Assembly (NCBI GenBank): GCA_002104905.1
Contig: MCFE01000635.1
Coordinates: forward strand, 1 to 51,043
From: Basidiobolus meristosporus CBS 931.73
Taxonomy: Eukaryota; Basidiobolomycota; Basidiobolomycetes; Basidiobolales; Basidiobolaceae
DNA: 51,043 bases
Direction of reading: 5' to 3'
Below the pieces are notes generated by a model. The model was not told the origin of the DNA. It saw nothing but the letters and a program-made list of their open reading frames with translations, and searched no databases. Made by a program: the position numbers and the translations under genes. Below, in pieces: positions 2,490 to 13,920 of this stretch (position 1 is its first letter; every line of letters starts with the position of its first letter).

Positions 2490-3198
2490 TGGCCAATGAC
2501 TTGAGTGGCTTTCTCATTGGAAATCTCACCAAATTTGGCATCCCAGCTTTTGATCAGCATCTGACTTTTGCCATCATACACTCTGTGCCCTTTAGTATCT
2601 CAACACTTCCCAAGAAGGATGCCTTTTCTACTCTTTGTTTCCAGAACTGAGTGTTGCTTGTCAGGTAAGTCACAAAAAACATCACTGCCAAAGATCCCAG
2701 GATGCTGTGATCTGGTTTGTTGTCTATATATGCTTTAAAATTGTATAGTGGTGTTATTGGGCATTAATTCTTGATATATACTGTAGTAGCAACAGATTCA
2801 GCCCAACACTTGTAGCACATTCCCTTATCATGTAGCATAAATCTTCCCATCTCTGCAATTACTCTATTTGCACATTCTGCTGATCCATTTTGCTGTGGGC
2901 CATGTGGAATAGTAGTCTGTTGAAGTATAACAGTCAATGAGCAGTACTTTACAAACTTCTTTGGGCAGTATTCCACCTCCCCATTGTGACTTTGAAGTAC
3001 CTTCAATCTACACCCAGTTTGCATTTCTTCCATGCTCATGAAGTTTTTAGACATTCTCAGAGCTTCATCCTTTGTCTTGAGGAAGTATACCCATGTATAT
3101 CTTGTCTTGTCATCAATAAACATTATCAAGTATCTTGTGGCACTAAAGGACAGTGCTTTTATAGGCCCAGTTATATATGAGTGCCAAACCAAAATCAT
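2490..3198 (-). pseudogene. Copia family B integrase (3' part of split element)
   Basis: Minus-strand Ty1/copia integrase core. The open part (2764-3198, 144 codons) shows the motifs GPIKALSFSATRYLIMFIDD and a PQQNGSAECANR segment around the catalytic Glu, then WAESVATTVYIKN. Beyond a stop at 2764 the frame continues as the post-core segment (KGILLGKC-like, near 2600). It joins in frame, across a 4-bp duplicated site, to the GAG-pre-integrase segment at 5153-5290, so 3203-5148 is an insertion into this gene. Nonsense codons make it inactive. Confidence 0.85.
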
Positions 3199-3304
3199 CT
3201 AATGTTAATAACAATGTGCCAACTGATTTGGGTGTTAAACATCTTGGTAGTGTTAACATTAAATACAAATAACTCAAACAACCCTTTTCTATTCCTACCT
3301 CTGA

Positions 3305-3811
3305 TACCAGGCCTTTATCTTTGCCAACACCCCAAGCTTTGATTTTACACCTTTAGTCAACAAACTTTCCAGAATTGCTTATAACAAAGATGACTTTCTA
3401 AAATCTGCTTTTAACAGTTTAAATATTTTTTAGGTTGGTCAAACAAATGCATATCAAGAACTTTGCAACAGTGTTATTGTTTTAACTAAATACATTTCTG
3501 ACTTGGCTAATTAGGTAAATGCCATTTCAACTACTCCACCAGTTGTAAGCATTAGTGCTCCTTCATCATTGGCTCCCATTGAAACTGCTCCAGTTAATAA
3601 GGAACCTGGAGAAACTATTATCAAGGAAGTGGACCAAGTATTGGGTGATAAGAATGTTGTCATGATTATTTGTAAGAATGGCAAGCAAGACTTTGATAAA
3701 TTGGACAAGGAAGATATCCAAAAGATTATGGAAACTATTGGCAAAGATGACGTTTATGTTGCAAACTCTTTGTTTAGTGCTGTTACAAACGTTGCTGCCT
3801 TAAATAAATAA
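3305..3811 (+). pseudogene. Unrecognised protein gene of the virus-like insert
   Basis: An in-frame stretch of 168 codons from after TGA (3302-3304) to TAA (3809-3811), broken only by TAG at 3431-3433 and 3512-3514. The composition is protein-like: an N-terminal mixed region, a Pro/Ser/Thr/Ala-rich linker (about 3520-3610), then a charged C-terminal domain with GKQDFDKLDKEDIQKIMETI. A second frame on the same strand (3204-3275) may be the upstream part joined by a frameshift. I do not recognise the family. It is truncated at the 5' side by the insert border and convergent with the glycosylase gene. Confidence 0.55.
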
Positions 3812-3859
3812 TTGTTGTGTGCATGATCATATCAACTTTTGATTATTAGACTTTGTAAA

Positions 3860-4262
3860 AAGTGTTTTTTATCAGATGTTAATATTTTAGATCAAACATA
3901 TCTTATATTAAACTTGAGTGTAAAAAACTTTTTTAAAACAAACTTATCTTGGATCAAACCTCAACGTCTAAACCTGTTTTAAAACAAACTTATCTTGGAT
4001 CAAACCTAAATGTCTAAACCTGTTTTAAAACAAACTAACTTATCTTAGATATAACTCATCTTGGATCGAACTAACTAACTTATCTCATACTAAACTTAAG
4101 CGTATAAAACATTTTTAAAACTAACTAACTCATCTCATATTAAACTTAAGCGTTTAAAGCTAACTAACTCATCTCATATTAAACTTGAGCGTATAAAACT
4201 TTTTAAAACTAACTAACTTATCTTGGATCAAACCTAAACTTCAACACCTAAAATACTTCTGT
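3860..4262. repeat. AT-rich iteron-like repeats between the two insert genes
   Basis: Roughly six diverged units of about 45-65 bp built from cttatcttggatcaaacct, a 'cgtctaaacctgttttaaaac' type segment, and later variants aactaactcatctcatatt with taagcgtataaaac. The block lies exactly in the gap between two convergent genes. Such repeats can be origins, enhancers or terminators in viral genomes; here only the repetition itself is seen. Confidence 0.7.
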
Positions 4263-4319
4263 CTTCCATGCCCACACCTTTTAAAAAATAACTTCTTACC
4301 TTCTTCAACCATTCCCCAT

Positions 4320-5027
4320 TTAGGGATACCACATTATTGGCATTGTCTCCACCTCATATACCAACATCTCATTCATCCTTATAAATATATTCTCCTCCTC
4401 AAACTTTTTATCCAACCCATTCATATCCCCTATCTTCCCCACTTTTATCAAATACTTTGACCCTATGCAATCTGCTAAATTTATTGCATCCTTCCCTATT
4501 AATATTGTTACTATTCTCCCTCCCCTCTTCACATATATATACTTTAACAGCTCCCTTGTAAACTCTTCCCACAATATTCTATGATTTGCCAAAAATTTAT
4601 CACAATTCACCCCCATCGTAAATCCTACGTTTATCATAAACACCCACTGTGATACCCATTGTCTTAACATCTCTTTTGGCTATGGCATATCTACCTCATA
4701 CTCTAACCCTACTTTCTTTGCCATTAATATTGCCTCCATTGGATTCTTCCTACACTCCAATGACGGTATTAACTCTATCCCTGACGCATACTCTACCCCT
4801 GTCACATTACACACACTATTATACTGCTCTTTACACACTATTACCACCTTTATCTTATCCGGTTCCATCAGTCTTAACATCCTAAACACATTTTTCTTCT
4901 TTGGCAACACTTCCAATTTTGACTCTTTTAACATCTTTAATACTCTCCTCAGTATATCCATGTTCTTCTCAAAAGATTCTTCCCACCTTTTTATCATCAT
5001 GAATATTTCACCTACCAAATCTTCCAT
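4320..5027 (-). pseudogene. Uracil-DNA glycosylase-like gene, one in-frame TAG
   Basis: 235 codons from ATG at 5027 to TAA at 4320, the usual length for family-1 uracil-DNA glycosylases, with a single TAG at 4680-4682 (codon 116). Visible family features are a WEESF helix, an L-P-x-x-x-x-V-F-R entry, PDKIKVVIV leading to the active-site loop at codons 65-69, IPSL, a Q-x-V-F-M-I-N segment near codon 133, WEEFTRELL, and a C-terminal N-E-M-L-x(6)-P-I-x-W. The loop reads CKEQY instead of GxDPY, so the catalytic Asp is Glu, and no HPSP-type motif is seen. The product would repair uracil in DNA or act as a replication cofactor; here it is probably inactive. It is more like diverged viral than cellular enzymes (inference). 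Confidence 0.75.
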
Positions 5028-5148
5028 CCTTGATGACAAATATACCAAGCTTTACCTCTAAAAACTTATCAATAATGAGAATACCTCCGTTCTTGTTAAA
5101 AATAATATTATTTCTACCAACAAACAAAATCAAAACCTTTTTTATATA
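5008..5148 (-). pseudogene. Tail of an upstream frame overlapping the glycosylase start
   Basis: An open minus-strand frame enters at the insert border (5148) and stops at TGA 5008-5010, overlapping the glycosylase start by 20 bp in another frame. It encodes 46 residues rich in Ile, Lys and Gly, ending KLGIFVIKDGRFGR. It could be the C-terminus of an upstream gene cut by the border, since overlaps of this sort are common in compact viral genomes. A chance frame in AT-rich DNA cannot be excluded. Confidence 0.35.
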
Positions 5149-5152
5149 CTAA

Positions 5153-5900
5153 ATTCTGTCAAAAATTCCTTTATGCCAGCTCCTGAAATGTTGCCTAGCT
5201 TTTTTGCTATATGCACAACCCTTACATACATTCAATATGATTGAAACTGAGTAATATAAGCCAAGACAAATTGCTTTTTCACCAAATAGCTCATTTTCTA
5301 TCCCCCAATGCGTCTTAGCCTTCTATGGCATGTCTCCCTGTTTGTTTCCTCAGTTTCAGCAATGTAGACATACACAGGTACAATGATCTTGCATTGTAAC
5401 CTATGTATCTTTTCTTCATCATTTACACCAGCATTAATAAAGTAAAGTTCTTCTGGTAGTGGCTCCAATTGGGTAATAAGTGGTAGCATGTCATCATTTG
5501 GCTTCTTCCTCATGCTGAAGAACTTTTATTTCAATTAAAGCTTGCTTGATACTGACTTTGCTCTAAAGATCTACTTCAAGGACTCACATTTTGCGTTGGC
5601 AGTATTTGAAACATGGATTTATCCAATGAAGGGATCTTTCACATTGATACAAATGGCATTAAAGACCTTTCGCTCCTTCTCTTAAAACTTCTCCACTTCT
5701 TCTGCTGTTTCTATGGGCTTAACTTCTTTTCCTGCTACTATATTCTAAGTGTCCTTTCCTCAAGGTCAATCTGCATCCTAATTCTCCAAAGTCTGTAGTT
5801 CTTCTCATCAAACCTCTCCTTCACAGGGAAGGTGATTGCTTATTCTGTTTGCTGGTAGAAGCCATCTTTAGATTAGGCTAAGGCAATCAGGGCTCATAAC
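5153..5900 (-). pseudogene. Copia family B gag to GAG-pre-integrase (5' part of split element)
   Basis: Decayed minus-strand coding region between the 5' LTR (5902-7005) and the insert. Near 5190-5230 it reads CKGCAYSKKARQHF, the C-x2-C...GK/SK...R-x-F signature of copia GAG-pre-integrase, preceded by a CHRRL segment at about 5310-5330. The rest (5520-5900) is the gag start, similar to 1-324. At about 750 bp this is far shorter than gag plus protease usually need, so an internal deletion is likely. Confidence 0.65.
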
Positions 5901-9360: not shown

Positions 9361-9728
9361 TGTTATGATCTGCCGCTTGAATGTTTAAGTTAGATCAGTT
9401 TTTAGTCAAATCAATTAGTATATGTTTAGGTTATCAGTATATCAGTATTATCTATGAAATCAGTAGCATTAGTCAGCAAATGAATCAGCAGATCCTTATC
9501 AGACAGAAAAAGATATATTAAGTAGGATCTTATTGGGTGATGATGATGCAATCAAATGAGTCATCAGCCACAACCTACATTAGGAAATACAATTAGTCAG
9601 CAATTGATCTGGCAAAATGTATATAAGGAGCTGCTGGAACCTCAATAAAAATCAGTTCAAGTTTTAGTGAATACAATACTAGCTAAACTCCCTATTCCTC
9701 TACAACTCTTATACCAAGACTTGTAACA
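9361..9728 (+). repeat. 5' LTR of the intact gypsy element
   Basis: Starts tgttatgatc and ends cttgtaaca. It contains a TATATAAG box (9620-9627) and AATAAA (9644-9649), spaced 24 bp, so the polyadenylation signal falls about where transcription should start. Confidence 0.95.
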
Positions 9729-9746
9729 TTGGTAGCAGCGATAACC
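9729..9746 (+). promoter_or_regulatory. Primer-binding site of the gypsy element
   Basis: ttggtagcagcgataacc directly follows the LTR. TGGTAGCAGCG has the TGG start expected of a site pairing with a tRNA 3' end (CCA), and resembles initiator-Met type sites; the exact tRNA is not determined. Confidence 0.65.
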
Positions 9747-9786
9747 AGAAACCTCCCTCCTGAAGAAAGAAGAAACCACCCTCAAG

Positions 9787-12700
9787 ATGTCGGACAATCA
9801 AGAATGGAAGAATGCCATGCAGCAAATCCTGGCCCAACAGCAACAGCTACTCCAGATCCTCAGCCAACAGCAACAAGGAATGACTACCATGGCTCAGAGC
9901 CAGCAAAGCCCTGTCAAGAGCAACTTTAGTGTGAAGGTCAACCGGTACCATGGCAGAGTCAATGAAAACCTGGGAACTTGGCTCTTTCAGATTGAAGAAG
10001 CTTTTAAAGCTAAAGGAATTGCTCCAGAGAGCAAGTTGCATTATGCAGCTTCTTACCTGGCAGATGCAGCTTTACAGTGGTACCACAACAAGATCAGGTC
10101 AGCTACTATGATGGGATGCTCTACAATCTCTACCTGGGATGAGTTTGTGTCGGAAATTCAGGATGCTTTTGAACCTCCACACCAGCAGACACTACTAAGA
10201 AGGAAGTTAAAGACACTCAGACAGAAAGGAATGGTGCAAGAATACATCTATGAGTACAGATGTCTACTTGGACAAATTGAAAGAATGGACCCCTTGGATC
10301 AAGTTGAATACTTTATTGATGGGTTGAAAGAAAGAACTCGCAAGGAAGTCAATTACCGAAGACCTCAGACTATTGAAGAAGCCATCAAGATTGCCATTGA
10401 CTATGACTCAGCTATGTTTGGAGTTGGGAAGCCTACAGTGACTAGTCAGAAAGGCTATAATCATTATGAAAGAAGACAATCAGAAGCAGTACCAATGGAA
10501 ATAGACGCTATGCAGAAGAATCCCTCCTCAGAAGAATGCAAGAAGAGAGGACTTTGCTTCAATTGCCACCAGCAGGGACATATTGCAAAGTACTGCCCTC
10601 AGAGAAAAAATGGACACCAGCCAACAAGAACCTTCAACCATATTGAGTCCCATGAACACAGTAATGTGGAAGATGAGCTTGAAGAAGACTCGGAACTCAC
10701 CTTCCATATGACAGAAGAGTACTTGTCCCAAATGACTTCAAACTCAGGGAAGTTATTGTACCTGAATGGAGCAATCAATGGAGTACCTGCCAAGATCATG
10801 ATTGACTCAGGAGCATCGCATGAGTACATGTCAGAGCAATTTGCTTTGAAAGCTGGAATCAATTCGGAACCTACCAAATCAACTTCAGTCTCCACAGCTG
10901 ATGGGAACTCCCACATAATCAACCGTATTACCCAGCCAGTAAGAATGAAGATCAATGACTATGAAGAAGACCTACAGGCTTATATATTTGGGAACTGCAA
11001 GTTTGACCTTGTACTTGGGAAAACCTGGCTATTTTGTCGTAATCCATCAATCAACTGGAGAACCCATGCTACTCAGATCCAAAAAGACAACAAGACCTAT
11101 GAGCTATTACCTGCCAGGCTGGATTTCAACTTGGTCAATTCCAGTGTGTGTGAGACAAGTGAACTTAGCAAGACCCAGTTCTGTAGAGCACTTAGAAAAG
11201 GTACCCAGATGTTCCTCATGGCGGTATTACAGGAGGATTCCTCTATCCCAGCACCCCAGCAGGTCCAGACTCTCTTGAAGAAATATTCAGACGTGTTTCC
11301 AGATGAGCTTGTAAGCCTACCACCAGTCAGAGACGTGGATCATGCCATTGACACAGGAGATAGCCCTCCAGTGAGCAAGACACCTTACAGAATGAGTCCA
11401 TTGGAATTGGAGGAAATGAAGAAACAAATTGATCAGCTATTGGAGCAAGGATACATCAGGCCCAGCAAGTCACCTTGGGGAGCACCAGTGCTTTTTGTGA
11501 AAAAGAAGGATGGAACACTTAGGATGTGCATTGACTACAGAGCCCTGAACTCAGTTACCGTCAAGAATAAGTACCCCATACCTCGGATTGATGAGCTTTT
11601 GGACCAACTTAATGGAGCCACTATTTTCAGCAAGATCGACCTCATGTCAGGATACAACCAGATTAGGGTGAAACCAGAAGATATCCCTAAGACAGCATTC
11701 AGGACCAGATATGGACATTACGAGTACTTAGTCATGAGTTTTGGCCTCACTAATGCCCCTGCAACATTCATGACGCTGATGCAGACTGTCTTTCAGGAGT
11801 ACTTAGACAAGTTTGTGATAATCTACCTGGATGACATATTGATATACAGCAAGACAGAAAAGGATCACATGGTGCACATTGAAAAGGTCTTGAAGAAACT
11901 AAGAGAGAACAAGCTATACGGCAAGCTAGCCAAGTGTGAATTCTTCAAGGAACACGTAGAATATCTGGGACACATAGTGACTAGCACAGGAGTAACCTTA
12001 GACCCCAAGAAGGTGGAAGTAATCAAGAATTTGAAGCAGCCCCATAGCATATCAGAACTCAGATCCTTCCTTGGGATGGTTTCCTATTATCGGAGATTTG
12101 TCAAGTCATTTGCAAGTATTGCAGCCCCTTTAACTGATATCCTCAAGAAAGACAATACCTACAAGTGGGACATAGCTTGTGAGACTGCCTTCCAGACACT
12201 AAAGAATGAACTTGCTAAGCTGCCAAGCTTAAGAATACCTGACTTCAGAAAAGAGTTCACTCTGTGCACAGATGCTTCAGATTATGCAATTGGTGGAGTG
12301 CTGAGCCAAGAACACGAGGGAAAGGACTACCCTGTTGCCTTTGAATCCAAGAAACTGAACTCAGCAGAACAAAACTATCCAGTTCATGAGAAGGAGATGC
12401 TTGCTATAATACACTGTTTGAAGACATGGAGATGCTATATTGAAGGAGTCAAATGCACTGTGAAGACTGATCATGCCTCCCTCAAGTATATATTTACTCA
12501 GAAGGTACTCTCTAGAAGAATGACAAGATGGAGTGAGTACATTCAGCAATTTGACCTGGAGATTGTCTACTGTCCTGGAAAAAACAACACGGTTGCTGAT
12601 GCCTTATCAAGATTAGATCAAGTTGCACAACTCAACTTGGTGCATGAATCAGATTGGCCTAGCCTATTACCAAAGTACTTGGAGGACCAAGCCATTCCTA

Positions 12701-13920
12701 ATGAGGTGGATGAAGATATCAAGAAGATAATCCGTGATGAGGCCAGCAAATTTGTTGTACAGAATGAAACACTCTACCAAATTGTTGATGGAAGCCCTAT
12801 TGCCTATTGTCCTTATGTTGCTCGCCTGGATTTAATACATAAGCTACACAATGGATATGGACATCTTGGGATTGAAGGAACCTATAGCCTTGTAAAAGCC
12901 AGAGCATGGTGGCCCAGAATGAAACAAGACATTGAGAAGCTAGTAAAAACATGCCCAAACTGCCAAATCAATCAAGGCCAGCCACAAAGAATTGCCGAAC
13001 TCTTCCCTTTGGAGCCTGTAAGACCATTTGAGAGATGGGGAATTGACTTTATTGGAAGACTGCCAACTACCAGGAAATGCAACCGTTGGATCCTAGTAGC
13101 AATTGACCATGCCACTAAATGGCCAGTTGCTAAAGCTGTACCAATAGCCAGTGAACAAGAAGTTGCAAGTTTCATTTACCATGAGATCCTGATGAAGTTT
13201 GGATGCCCTGTGGAGATCTTATCCGATAGAGGTGCAAACTTTATGGCAAAGACATTAGAGGCTTACCTGGAAATGCAGCAGATCAGACACTTGAAAACCT
13301 CGGCATATCACCCCAGAACTAATGGAGTCACTGAGCGGTTTAATGGATTATTTGGAAAAATGCTGACCAAGTATGCAAATGGAGTTGTCAGTAGATGGGA
13401 TGAGTATATAGACCAAGCACTCTTTGCATGCAGAGTCAGAGTACACAACACCACCCAGCAATCACCATTTTACTTAGTTTATGGATGTGAACCAAGGATT
13501 CCAGGAGATCTCACACAACCAAAGCTTACAGACACCTTAGAAGATGAACTCAGTCAGCCAAGTAGACACCAGCAACTGGAACAAAGACGTCAAGAGGCAC
13601 AGACCAAAGTATCTCAAAGTGCAGAAAAGATGAAGCAGAGATTTGATAAGACTATAGCACCAGAAGCATTGACAGTTGGGAACTTTGTATTGCTAAGAAA
13701 CAACACTCGGAAGAAGTTTGAGCCACAATGGACAGGACCATTCAAGATCATCAGAGAATGTCCATTTGCAACTTACCAACTGGTGGACAAGCAAGGTAAT
13801 ATCCGGGAAGACTTAGTGCATAGGGACAGACTCAAGCTTGCAAGACTTGCTGATAATACTGAACCATCAAGATATTGGTATCACAAGAAAAGAGATTCAG
13901 GAGAACCCTCTCAACTTTAG
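9787..13920 (+). CDS. Gypsy Gag-Pol polyprotein, 1377 residues
   Basis: A single uninterrupted frame from ATG 9787 to TAG 13918. Order: a Gln-rich N-terminal Gag segment; retrotransposon Gag fold (about 60-210); zinc knuckle C257-C260-H265-C270; aspartic protease D340-S-G-A-S; reverse transcriptase (about 545-720) with YLDD at 680-683; RNase H starting near 827 with D829; integrase zinc finger H1021-H1026-C1056-C1059; catalytic triad D1087, D1147, E1183; and a C-terminal GPF segment without an obvious chromodomain. Gag and Pol are fused with no stop or frameshift, so Gag excess would need another mechanism. All catalytic residues are present, so the enzyme set looks functional. Confidence 0.97.

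Follow-up and report, generated by a model that had tools for sequence, protein, structure and literature searches.

Probable fragment of a poxvirus- or killer-plasmid-like element within a copia retrotransposon of Basidiobolus meristosporus

What kind of DNA interrupts a copia retrotransposon of the fungus Basidiobolus meristosporus CBS 931.73, and by what route it arrived, is the question raised by a stretch of 51,043 nucleotides (contig MCFE01000635.1 of assembly GCA_002104905.1, positions 1 to 51,043 of the forward strand; hereafter the window). A sequence-only reading of this stretch had described a segment with exact CTAA borders and a 4-bp target duplication, and had proposed an undescribed endogenised DNA virus or plasmid lineage as its source. 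The comparisons reported here make it likely that the 1,995-bp insert is a piece of a fungal DNA virus or virus-like element, linear and of cytoplasmic type, that resembles poxviruses and killer plasmids, and that the piece was captured by end joining and has since decayed. This explanation is based on sequence homology, on the linkage of some of the genes on shared pieces, on joints that lack a duplication, and on decay.

Borders of the insert and the genes within it

The insert and its immediate surroundings were found to comprise the following features.

3184..5178, no strand: DNA read as captured viral or virus-like, 1,995 bp, its joints with copia set by other copies and by an insert-free copia at C367:78361-79209
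2764..3183, minus strand: integrase core of copia, which forms the downstream part of the interrupted gene (PF00665 rve, E 0.0011, under the cut-off; 75% identity to the C367 copia)
5179..5400, minus strand: copia, upstream part of the interrupted gene (CxxC...KxARQ region; 80% identity to the C367 copia); a cut at 3183/5179 puts it in phase with the other side
3184..3811, plus strand: 3' part of a Gly-Leu-Gly-repeat protein gene, with one frame change and three in-frame stops
3882..4223, no strand: A+T-rich tandem repeats with units of about 16, 46 and 39 bp (Tandem Repeats Finder), in the spacer downstream of two convergent genes
4320..5027, minus strand: uracil-DNA-glycosylase-like (UDG) gene with one in-frame stop; the C446 copy is open
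4999..5178, plus strand: 5' end of a TFIIS-like gene that overlaps the UDG gene in head-to-head orientation, with a stop at codon 21 and cut at 5178

The joints were set by comparing the window with DNA sequences from other contigs of the same genome (89.0 Mb in 1,311 contigs, designated here by C numbers). Searched as DNA against the genome, the segment was matched 13 times, on nine contigs that include the window; parts of it were matched elsewhere at 83-91% over 0.3-1.3 kb, and no other locus of the genome was found to carry the whole segment. On the left, the match to C574 starts at 3184, and on C399 viral sequence extends a further 170 bp to the left (89%), while on the right C446 and C487 match the window as far as 5178. 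The insert-free copia relative on C367 aligns with the window over 2603-3183 and again from 5179, the 39 bp of copia that lie between these points being missing from the window. Both CTAA words are present, at 3199 and 5149, but viral sequence crosses the left one in C574 and C399 and the right one in C446 and C487. As the bases flanking CTAA are viral in these other copies, they do not represent a target duplication, and the insertion of a discrete mobile unit therefore also loses its support. Four-letter matches are moreover expected by chance, since 12 such words, CTAA among them, are common to both joint neighbourhoods, and 99.9% of 5,000 random pairs of points in the window have at least one in common. 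Removal of the segment at the CTAA words does leave the copia frame in phase, as had been claimed, but places a stop at CTAA itself, whereas a cut at 3183/5179 is both in phase and open across the joint. Right ends vary between copies, and neither the target-site duplication nor the fixed ends expected of a DNA transposon were seen among the copies and the copia relative compared. The joints would thus reflect end-joining capture rather than transposition, presumably by way of break repair.

The remaining description given by the sequence-only reading was borne out. The segment lies within the copia frame and is richer in A+T than its surroundings (G+C 0.33, against 0.40 for the window), and no transposon parts were recognised in its frames. 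The second gene, previously unrecognised, is the 3' part of the Gly-Leu-Gly-repeat gene, of which the 168-codon part is open on C574 and the frame is open throughout on C432; C574 also carries the 5' part, encoding the GLGG stretch, and no Pfam match above cut-off was obtained for the gene part in the window. The frame that overlaps the UDG gene is the 5' end of a TFIIS-like gene, which on C487, a contig that also carries a chitin synthase gene, goes on in frame to encode the zinc ribbon of TFIIS (PF01096, E 5e-11). The block described as iteron-like consists of tandem repeats with direct self-matches of 72-85%, the number of units differing in the C446 copy. The UDG-like gene was likewise found on the minus strand, and its open copy on C446 matched glycosylase structures in the PDB (top matches 6lye, 6lyd and 5x55, E 7e-13 to 1e-12), which we take to be mimivirus uracil-DNA glycosylase. 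Like the 83-91% matches of parts of the segment elsewhere in the genome, this result speaks against a chance resemblance.

Decay was evident beyond the broken frames. Six pairwise comparisons gave dN/dS values of 1.44, 0.83 and 0.54 for the UDG gene and 0.79, 0.49 and 0.58 for the GLGG-gene part; as these are nearer to neutrality than to strong constraint, divergence within the main group probably arose in large part after capture, alongside some earlier signal of purifying selection. The copies seen on C410 and C1194, with 39-63% protein identity over parts and mostly with stops, point to older captures or other strains.

Longer pieces in the genome and an environmental relative

A search of the host assembly for longer copies had been suggested, and such copies, with RNA-polymerase subunits, TFIIS and a family-B polymerase, were indeed found. 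Likely pieces lie on up to 27 contigs, of which 20 were fetched (all but C842, C127, C1248, C1125, C910, C921 and C869, some of which matched weakly, at E 1e-5 to 5e-4, and may reflect chance likeness or host sequence). A region of C574 (12.9-20.2 kb) links the UDG gene, the GLGG gene and unknown genes with the C-terminal half of the largest RNA-polymerase subunit, Rpb1 (domain 5, PF04998, E 4e-20), and a region of C367 (71.5-76.4 kb) carries the N-terminal half of Rpb1 (domains 2, 4 and 5 above cut-off and domain 3 slightly under it), Rpb5 (PF01191, E 9e-10) and a primase-like frame. The last of these, named from motifs that we take to be those of primases, had no Pfam or PDB match, and the herpes-type primase family PF03121 had no match in the genome, its control matching only under cut-off. 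Pieces of family-B polymerase were seen on C573 (E 5e-14), C377 (E 3e-13) and C757, and pieces of Rpb2 on C1, C662, C539 and C476. A polymerase match on C427 was left out, its motifs being presumably those of host polymerase zeta, and the matches on C683 and C598 were assigned to the host without being read.

An environmental counterpart is IMG/VR contig IMGVR_UViG_3300046454_001203 (17,169 bp; hereafter G015), which was found by a scan with an alignment of the Rpb1 piece and host Rpb1 that returned at least 217 relatives, 80 of them kept. IMG/VR scans with single proteins (the Rpb1 halves, Rpb2 and the polymerase piece) gave no match, a primase scan returned G015 only, and a scan with a polymerase alignment returned 11 loci, namely G015 and ten others at 24-33% that, within the DNA fetched, matched the G015 polymerase only. 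The first 127 bases of G015 are the reverse complement of its last 127. As assemblers commonly work with a k-mer of 127, the contig may be incomplete and its inverted repeat longer than this; the first 30 bases of the repeat occur in no other IMG/VR contig. The nine main frames of G015 (a tenth, of 96 codons, is omitted from this count) are as follows.

G015, 17,169 bp: polymerase B; a 227-aa gene; a probable capping enzyme; helicase; a lectin-like protein; the Rpb1 N-terminal half; a primase-like protein; UDG; TFIIS

Six of these nine were matched among the pieces searched: the Rpb1 N-terminal half, A' (30% over residues 1-627 of 629, E 2e-77), the primase-like protein (33%, E 7e-34), the polymerase (33%, E 1e-25), UDG (32%, E 2e-22, and for the gene of the insert 31%, E 1e-18), the 227-aa gene (E 1e-8) and the TFIIS-like gene (E 1e-6). 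UDG and TFIIS stand head-to-head on G015 as in the window, and share about 50 bp when TFIIS is read from its first start codon. The G015 polymerase matched PF00136 and the exonuclease domain PF03104 and did not match PF03175, which we take to be the protein-primed polymerase family; it also gave a weak match to C427 (E 5e-6). The G015 helicase is D6-like, being nearest to poxvirus VETFS (E 9e-15) and NPH-I, and had seven matches on six contigs of the fungal genome (C1212, C1116, C1125, C910, C921 and C869) at 26-55% identity, the two fetched, C1212 and C1116, standing at 46% and 42%. On C1212 (375-4820) the helicase piece lies within a copia frame and is thus a second piece inside a retrotransposon. 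On C1116 a helicase end without stops (1-2706) is followed by an 884-codon open polymerase-B frame, belonging to the same family, to about 4420, at the edge of this 33,329-bp contig. G015 also encodes, at 9502-12936, a secreted-looking lectin-like protein of 1,145 aa (B-lectin, PF01453), for which no match was found among the pieces compared with G015.

The largest RNA-polymerase subunit is split. The N-terminal half on C367, which has one in-frame stop within it, ends after the YLNRR region at ...IIDDIFKNC and is followed by three stops, with Rpb5 starting about 100 bp on. The 629-codon half on G015, a contig of separate origin, in which Rpb1 domain 1 matched at the start under cut-off, stops at the identical position. 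On C574 the C-terminal half opens with MEPGTPIG, preceded by in-frame stops and, farther out, by a divergent gene; the same start is seen on C754, which is 97.5% identical to C574 over 919 bp and so is perhaps not an independent witness. The divergent frame on C574 and C754, of 160-176 codons, had no Pfam match. By our reading of the domains the split point would be the a15/a16 boundary, at which the largest subunit of yeast killer plasmids and some archaea is described as divided (PMC6211774).

The glycosylase motif was altered wherever it could be read. Active family-1 uracil-DNA glycosylases carry the motif GQDPYH, in place of which CKEQYN was found in the window, CKEPYN on C446 and C574, CKALYE on C410, CKVLYN on C1194 and GQSPYP on G015. 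The catalytic Asp of GQDPY is therefore replaced in all five genomic copies with a readable motif, the others being too short, and also in G015, the only one of these proteins to match PF03167. Because of this replacement, the UDG-fold protein is probably a DNA-binding replication factor rather than a glycosylase, its part in replication resembling that of poxvirus D4 in processivity. With the UDG superfamily profile the fungal genome gave one clear match, on C952, which we take from its motif to be a TDG/MUG-type enzyme, and a second, weak match with a stop, on C269. The window gene was not seen to fall inside host gene families, which would have spoken against a viral source, although this was examined only in part, through the C952 match and without a glycosylase tree.

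Named relatives of the G015 polymerase were found in Mortierellaceae, Bifiguratus and Ramaria. Of 7,999 candidates scored, 531 were matched at E 1e-3, and among the 120 matches listed the named ones were Mortierella sp. GBA30 (57%), Linnemannia elongata (59%), Podila clonocystis (61% over 85%), Bifiguratus adelaidae (50% over 78%) and Ramaria rubella (43%). In comparisons with the same 120 and G015, the C573 and C377 pieces were nearest to P0038 and P0049 (59-60% and 53-55%), with which they also grouped at a support of 95/94 in a tree whose alignment had 37 rows over 172 columns, made from 34 of the 120 listed proteins, G015 and the two pieces, and excluding matches of 950 aa or more. Several polymerases of this wider family are about 1,000-1,200 aa long, and P0044 and P0065 have an insertion, PF14890, presumably of intein type, at the YGD/TDS catalytic motif.

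Proposed origin and alternative explanations

The proposed endogenised DNA virus or plasmid lineage is favoured by the longer copies and by the related 17-kb IMG/VR contig. Such an element would copy its own DNA and make its own mRNA by means of a family-B polymerase, a split-subunit RNA polymerase and a TFIIS-like factor, and its further kit would include a D6/NPH-I-like helicase, a probable capping enzyme, a primase-like protein and the UDG-fold protein. By what is known of poxviruses and killer plasmids, its transcription and replication would take place apart from host nuclear transcription. Element DNA would now and then enter nuclear double-strand breaks and be joined in by end joining; the piece in the window would have landed in a copia retrotransposon with the loss of 39 bp and would have decayed later. 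We infer the cytoplasmic life of the element, linear ends and a capping enzyme in the host's own element, and the derivation of all pieces, Rpb2 and Rpb5 above all, from one lineage.

Several observations weigh against this attribution. Genomic copies of the UDG protein had no match in a UDG profile search, the C446 copy had no match to any Pfam family, and UDG and Rpb5 had no homologs among 5.8 billion proteins at E 1e-3 in a word-based search of limited reach. In phmmer, the 294-residue Rpb1 piece of C367 scored 80 bits against G015, slightly less than against host Rpb1 (89 bits) and some other virus contigs (up to 95 bits), and in a tree of 22 of the 84 collected rows together with this piece (one host row and 61 contig rows being left out) it joined G015 on long branches at 80/30 only. 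The UDG and primase-like frames, by contrast, matched G015. In the same tree, two very similar host polymerase II-type Rpb1 genes on C679 and C425 formed a 100/100 pair, which suggests that the genome is a hybrid or has been duplicated. On G015 no Rpb2, Rpb5 or second Rpb1 half was recognised, so that these are linked to the same element through C574, C367 and composition. The capping-enzyme frame of G015, which has what we take to be a guanylyltransferase-like motif, gave a weak N7-methyltransferase match in the PDB (E 0.1) and no match in the fungal genome in a search that lacked a positive control. C1116 was read over its first 2.7 kb. The capsid family PF04451 was matched neither in the genome (0 of 1) nor in the virus contigs (0 of 15), a result that says little as the positive controls gave no match either. 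Finally, and in part only, the C432 piece begins at about 3197, two bases from the CTAA border proposed on the left, with non-viral DNA beyond it.

This last point, together with the existence of both CTAA words and the in-phase copia frame after a cut there, would suit a discrete mobile element with its own integrase and a 4-bp CTAA target duplication. The C432 piece, however, ends on the right at about 3969, distant from the right border proposed earlier, and with viral sequence crossing both words, right ends that vary by copy, 39 bp of target missing and four-letter matches expected anyway, such an element is hardly credible. A changed genetic code in which TAG is read as Gln could also account for the broken frames, as the stops in the UDG frame and in the 168-codon part are all TAG. 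This idea was dropped because the UDG frame is open on C446 and C574, and the second gene on C574 and C432, without any such reading, and because TAA stops occur in the window in the TFIIS-like frame and in the first part of the second gene; the long standard-code frames on G015 likewise make it highly improbable. That the pieces spread as passengers of retrotransposons, instead of by many separate captures, is suggested by the position of the window piece in copia, by the C1212 helicase piece and by the C574 piece, which adjoins sequence that we take to be gypsy-type. No two loci among those read have the same pair of joints, and this explanation is considered unlikely. As the window piece holds two genes on opposite strands and a spacer, it is also not a copied mRNA.

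A capsid-bearing giant virus (Nucleocytoviricota, such as a relative of pithoviruses or asfarviruses) that infected the fungus, with G015 as part of a larger genome, is a possible though not a favoured source, and amounts to a version of the explanation preferred here that differs from it in the virion. The gene set (polymerase B, Rpb1, Rpb2, Rpb5, TFIIS and a D6-like helicase) is typical of such viruses, the repeat of exactly 127 bp means that G015 may end inside a longer one, and among the matches listed relatives of its polymerase lie on contigs of up to 95 kb. Polymerase genes of such viruses have reportedly been described from basal fungi (Gong, 2020, cited in PMC10640383). However, neither G015 nor the pieces read showed a recognisable capsid, packaging or other virion gene, the capsid test being weak and no genome search having been aimed at the packaging ATPase (A32), and the largest RNA-polymerase subunit is split. 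The element of cytoplasmic type, captured by end joining, is retained as the best explanation.

Relation to known viruses and plasmids

The lineage can be called undescribed for its anatomy only, which looks new; as for its general kind, endogenous large DNA viruses of basal fungi are already in print, and no double-stranded DNA virus infecting fungi is said to be known beyond genomic traces (PMC10640383 for both statements). Neither such elements in Basidiobolus or Mortierella nor an intermediate between viruses and plasmids was found in the literature searched (titles and abstract openings, with few subscription papers and preprints). As a tentative extension, fungi may host old, widespread, small linear and capsidless DNA elements, probably multipartite, with a poxvirus-like set for replication and transcription and an archaeal-style split Rpb1. 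These would be surviving intermediates between large viruses and killer plasmids, of which the window holds a fossil and C1116 hints at a living one. Killer plasmids have been proposed to originate close to poxviruses (PMC6211774), and this proposal would become testable through a fungal lineage that combines the subunit split of killer plasmids with TFIIS, a UDG-fold protein and an Rpb1 separate from Rpb2. The genome in turn offers a record of repeated capture in one fungus.

Compared with yeast killer plasmids of the pGKL2 type, the lineage has in common a fungal host, its own RNA polymerase with the largest subunit divided, by our reading of the domains, at a15/a16, and a D6/NPH-I-like helicase (PMC6211774); a capping enzyme, probable on G015, may be a further shared trait. 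In pGKL2 the beta subunit is fused to beta-prime, whereas here Rpb1 starts alone (the 629-aa frame of G015) and pieces of Rpb2 lie elsewhere; as this fusion was not found, the lineage is not filed as a member of the yeast plasmids. The polymerase of G015, with PF00136 and an exonuclease domain, gave no match to the protein-primed family, although a terminal protein may be present. A linear form with inverted terminal repeats, which we take to be that of the yeast elements, may be shared, in so far as the 127-bp repeat of G015, equal to a common k-mer, can be so read. The UDG-fold, TFIIS-like and primase-like genes present here are, to our knowledge, absent from pGKL2.

The gene set of the Nucleocytoviricota, that is polymerase B, Rpb1, Rpb2, TFIIS and a D6-like helicase (this likeness being taken from the G015 helicase), was found. 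Endogenous Nucleocytoviricota of Rhizophagus share with the present lineage an early-diverging fungal host, polymerase B together with RNA-polymerase subunits, and no recognised major capsid gene, but form one asfarvirus-like block of 1.5 Mb (PMC10640383), whereas here there are scattered kilobase pieces, a split Rpb1 and a 17-kb relative. To the family-1 UDG of poxviruses and mimivirus the UDG-fold protein is similar over the fold and differs in the replaced catalytic Asp (CKEPY, CKEQY, CKALY and CKVLY; GQSPY on G015). The mode of capture finds its counterpart in the nuclear sequences of plasmid or viral origin (NUPAVs) of yeasts, in which scraps of cytoplasmic linear plasmids were captured without transposition; the pieces described here differ from these in belonging to another fungal lineage and in their richer gene set.

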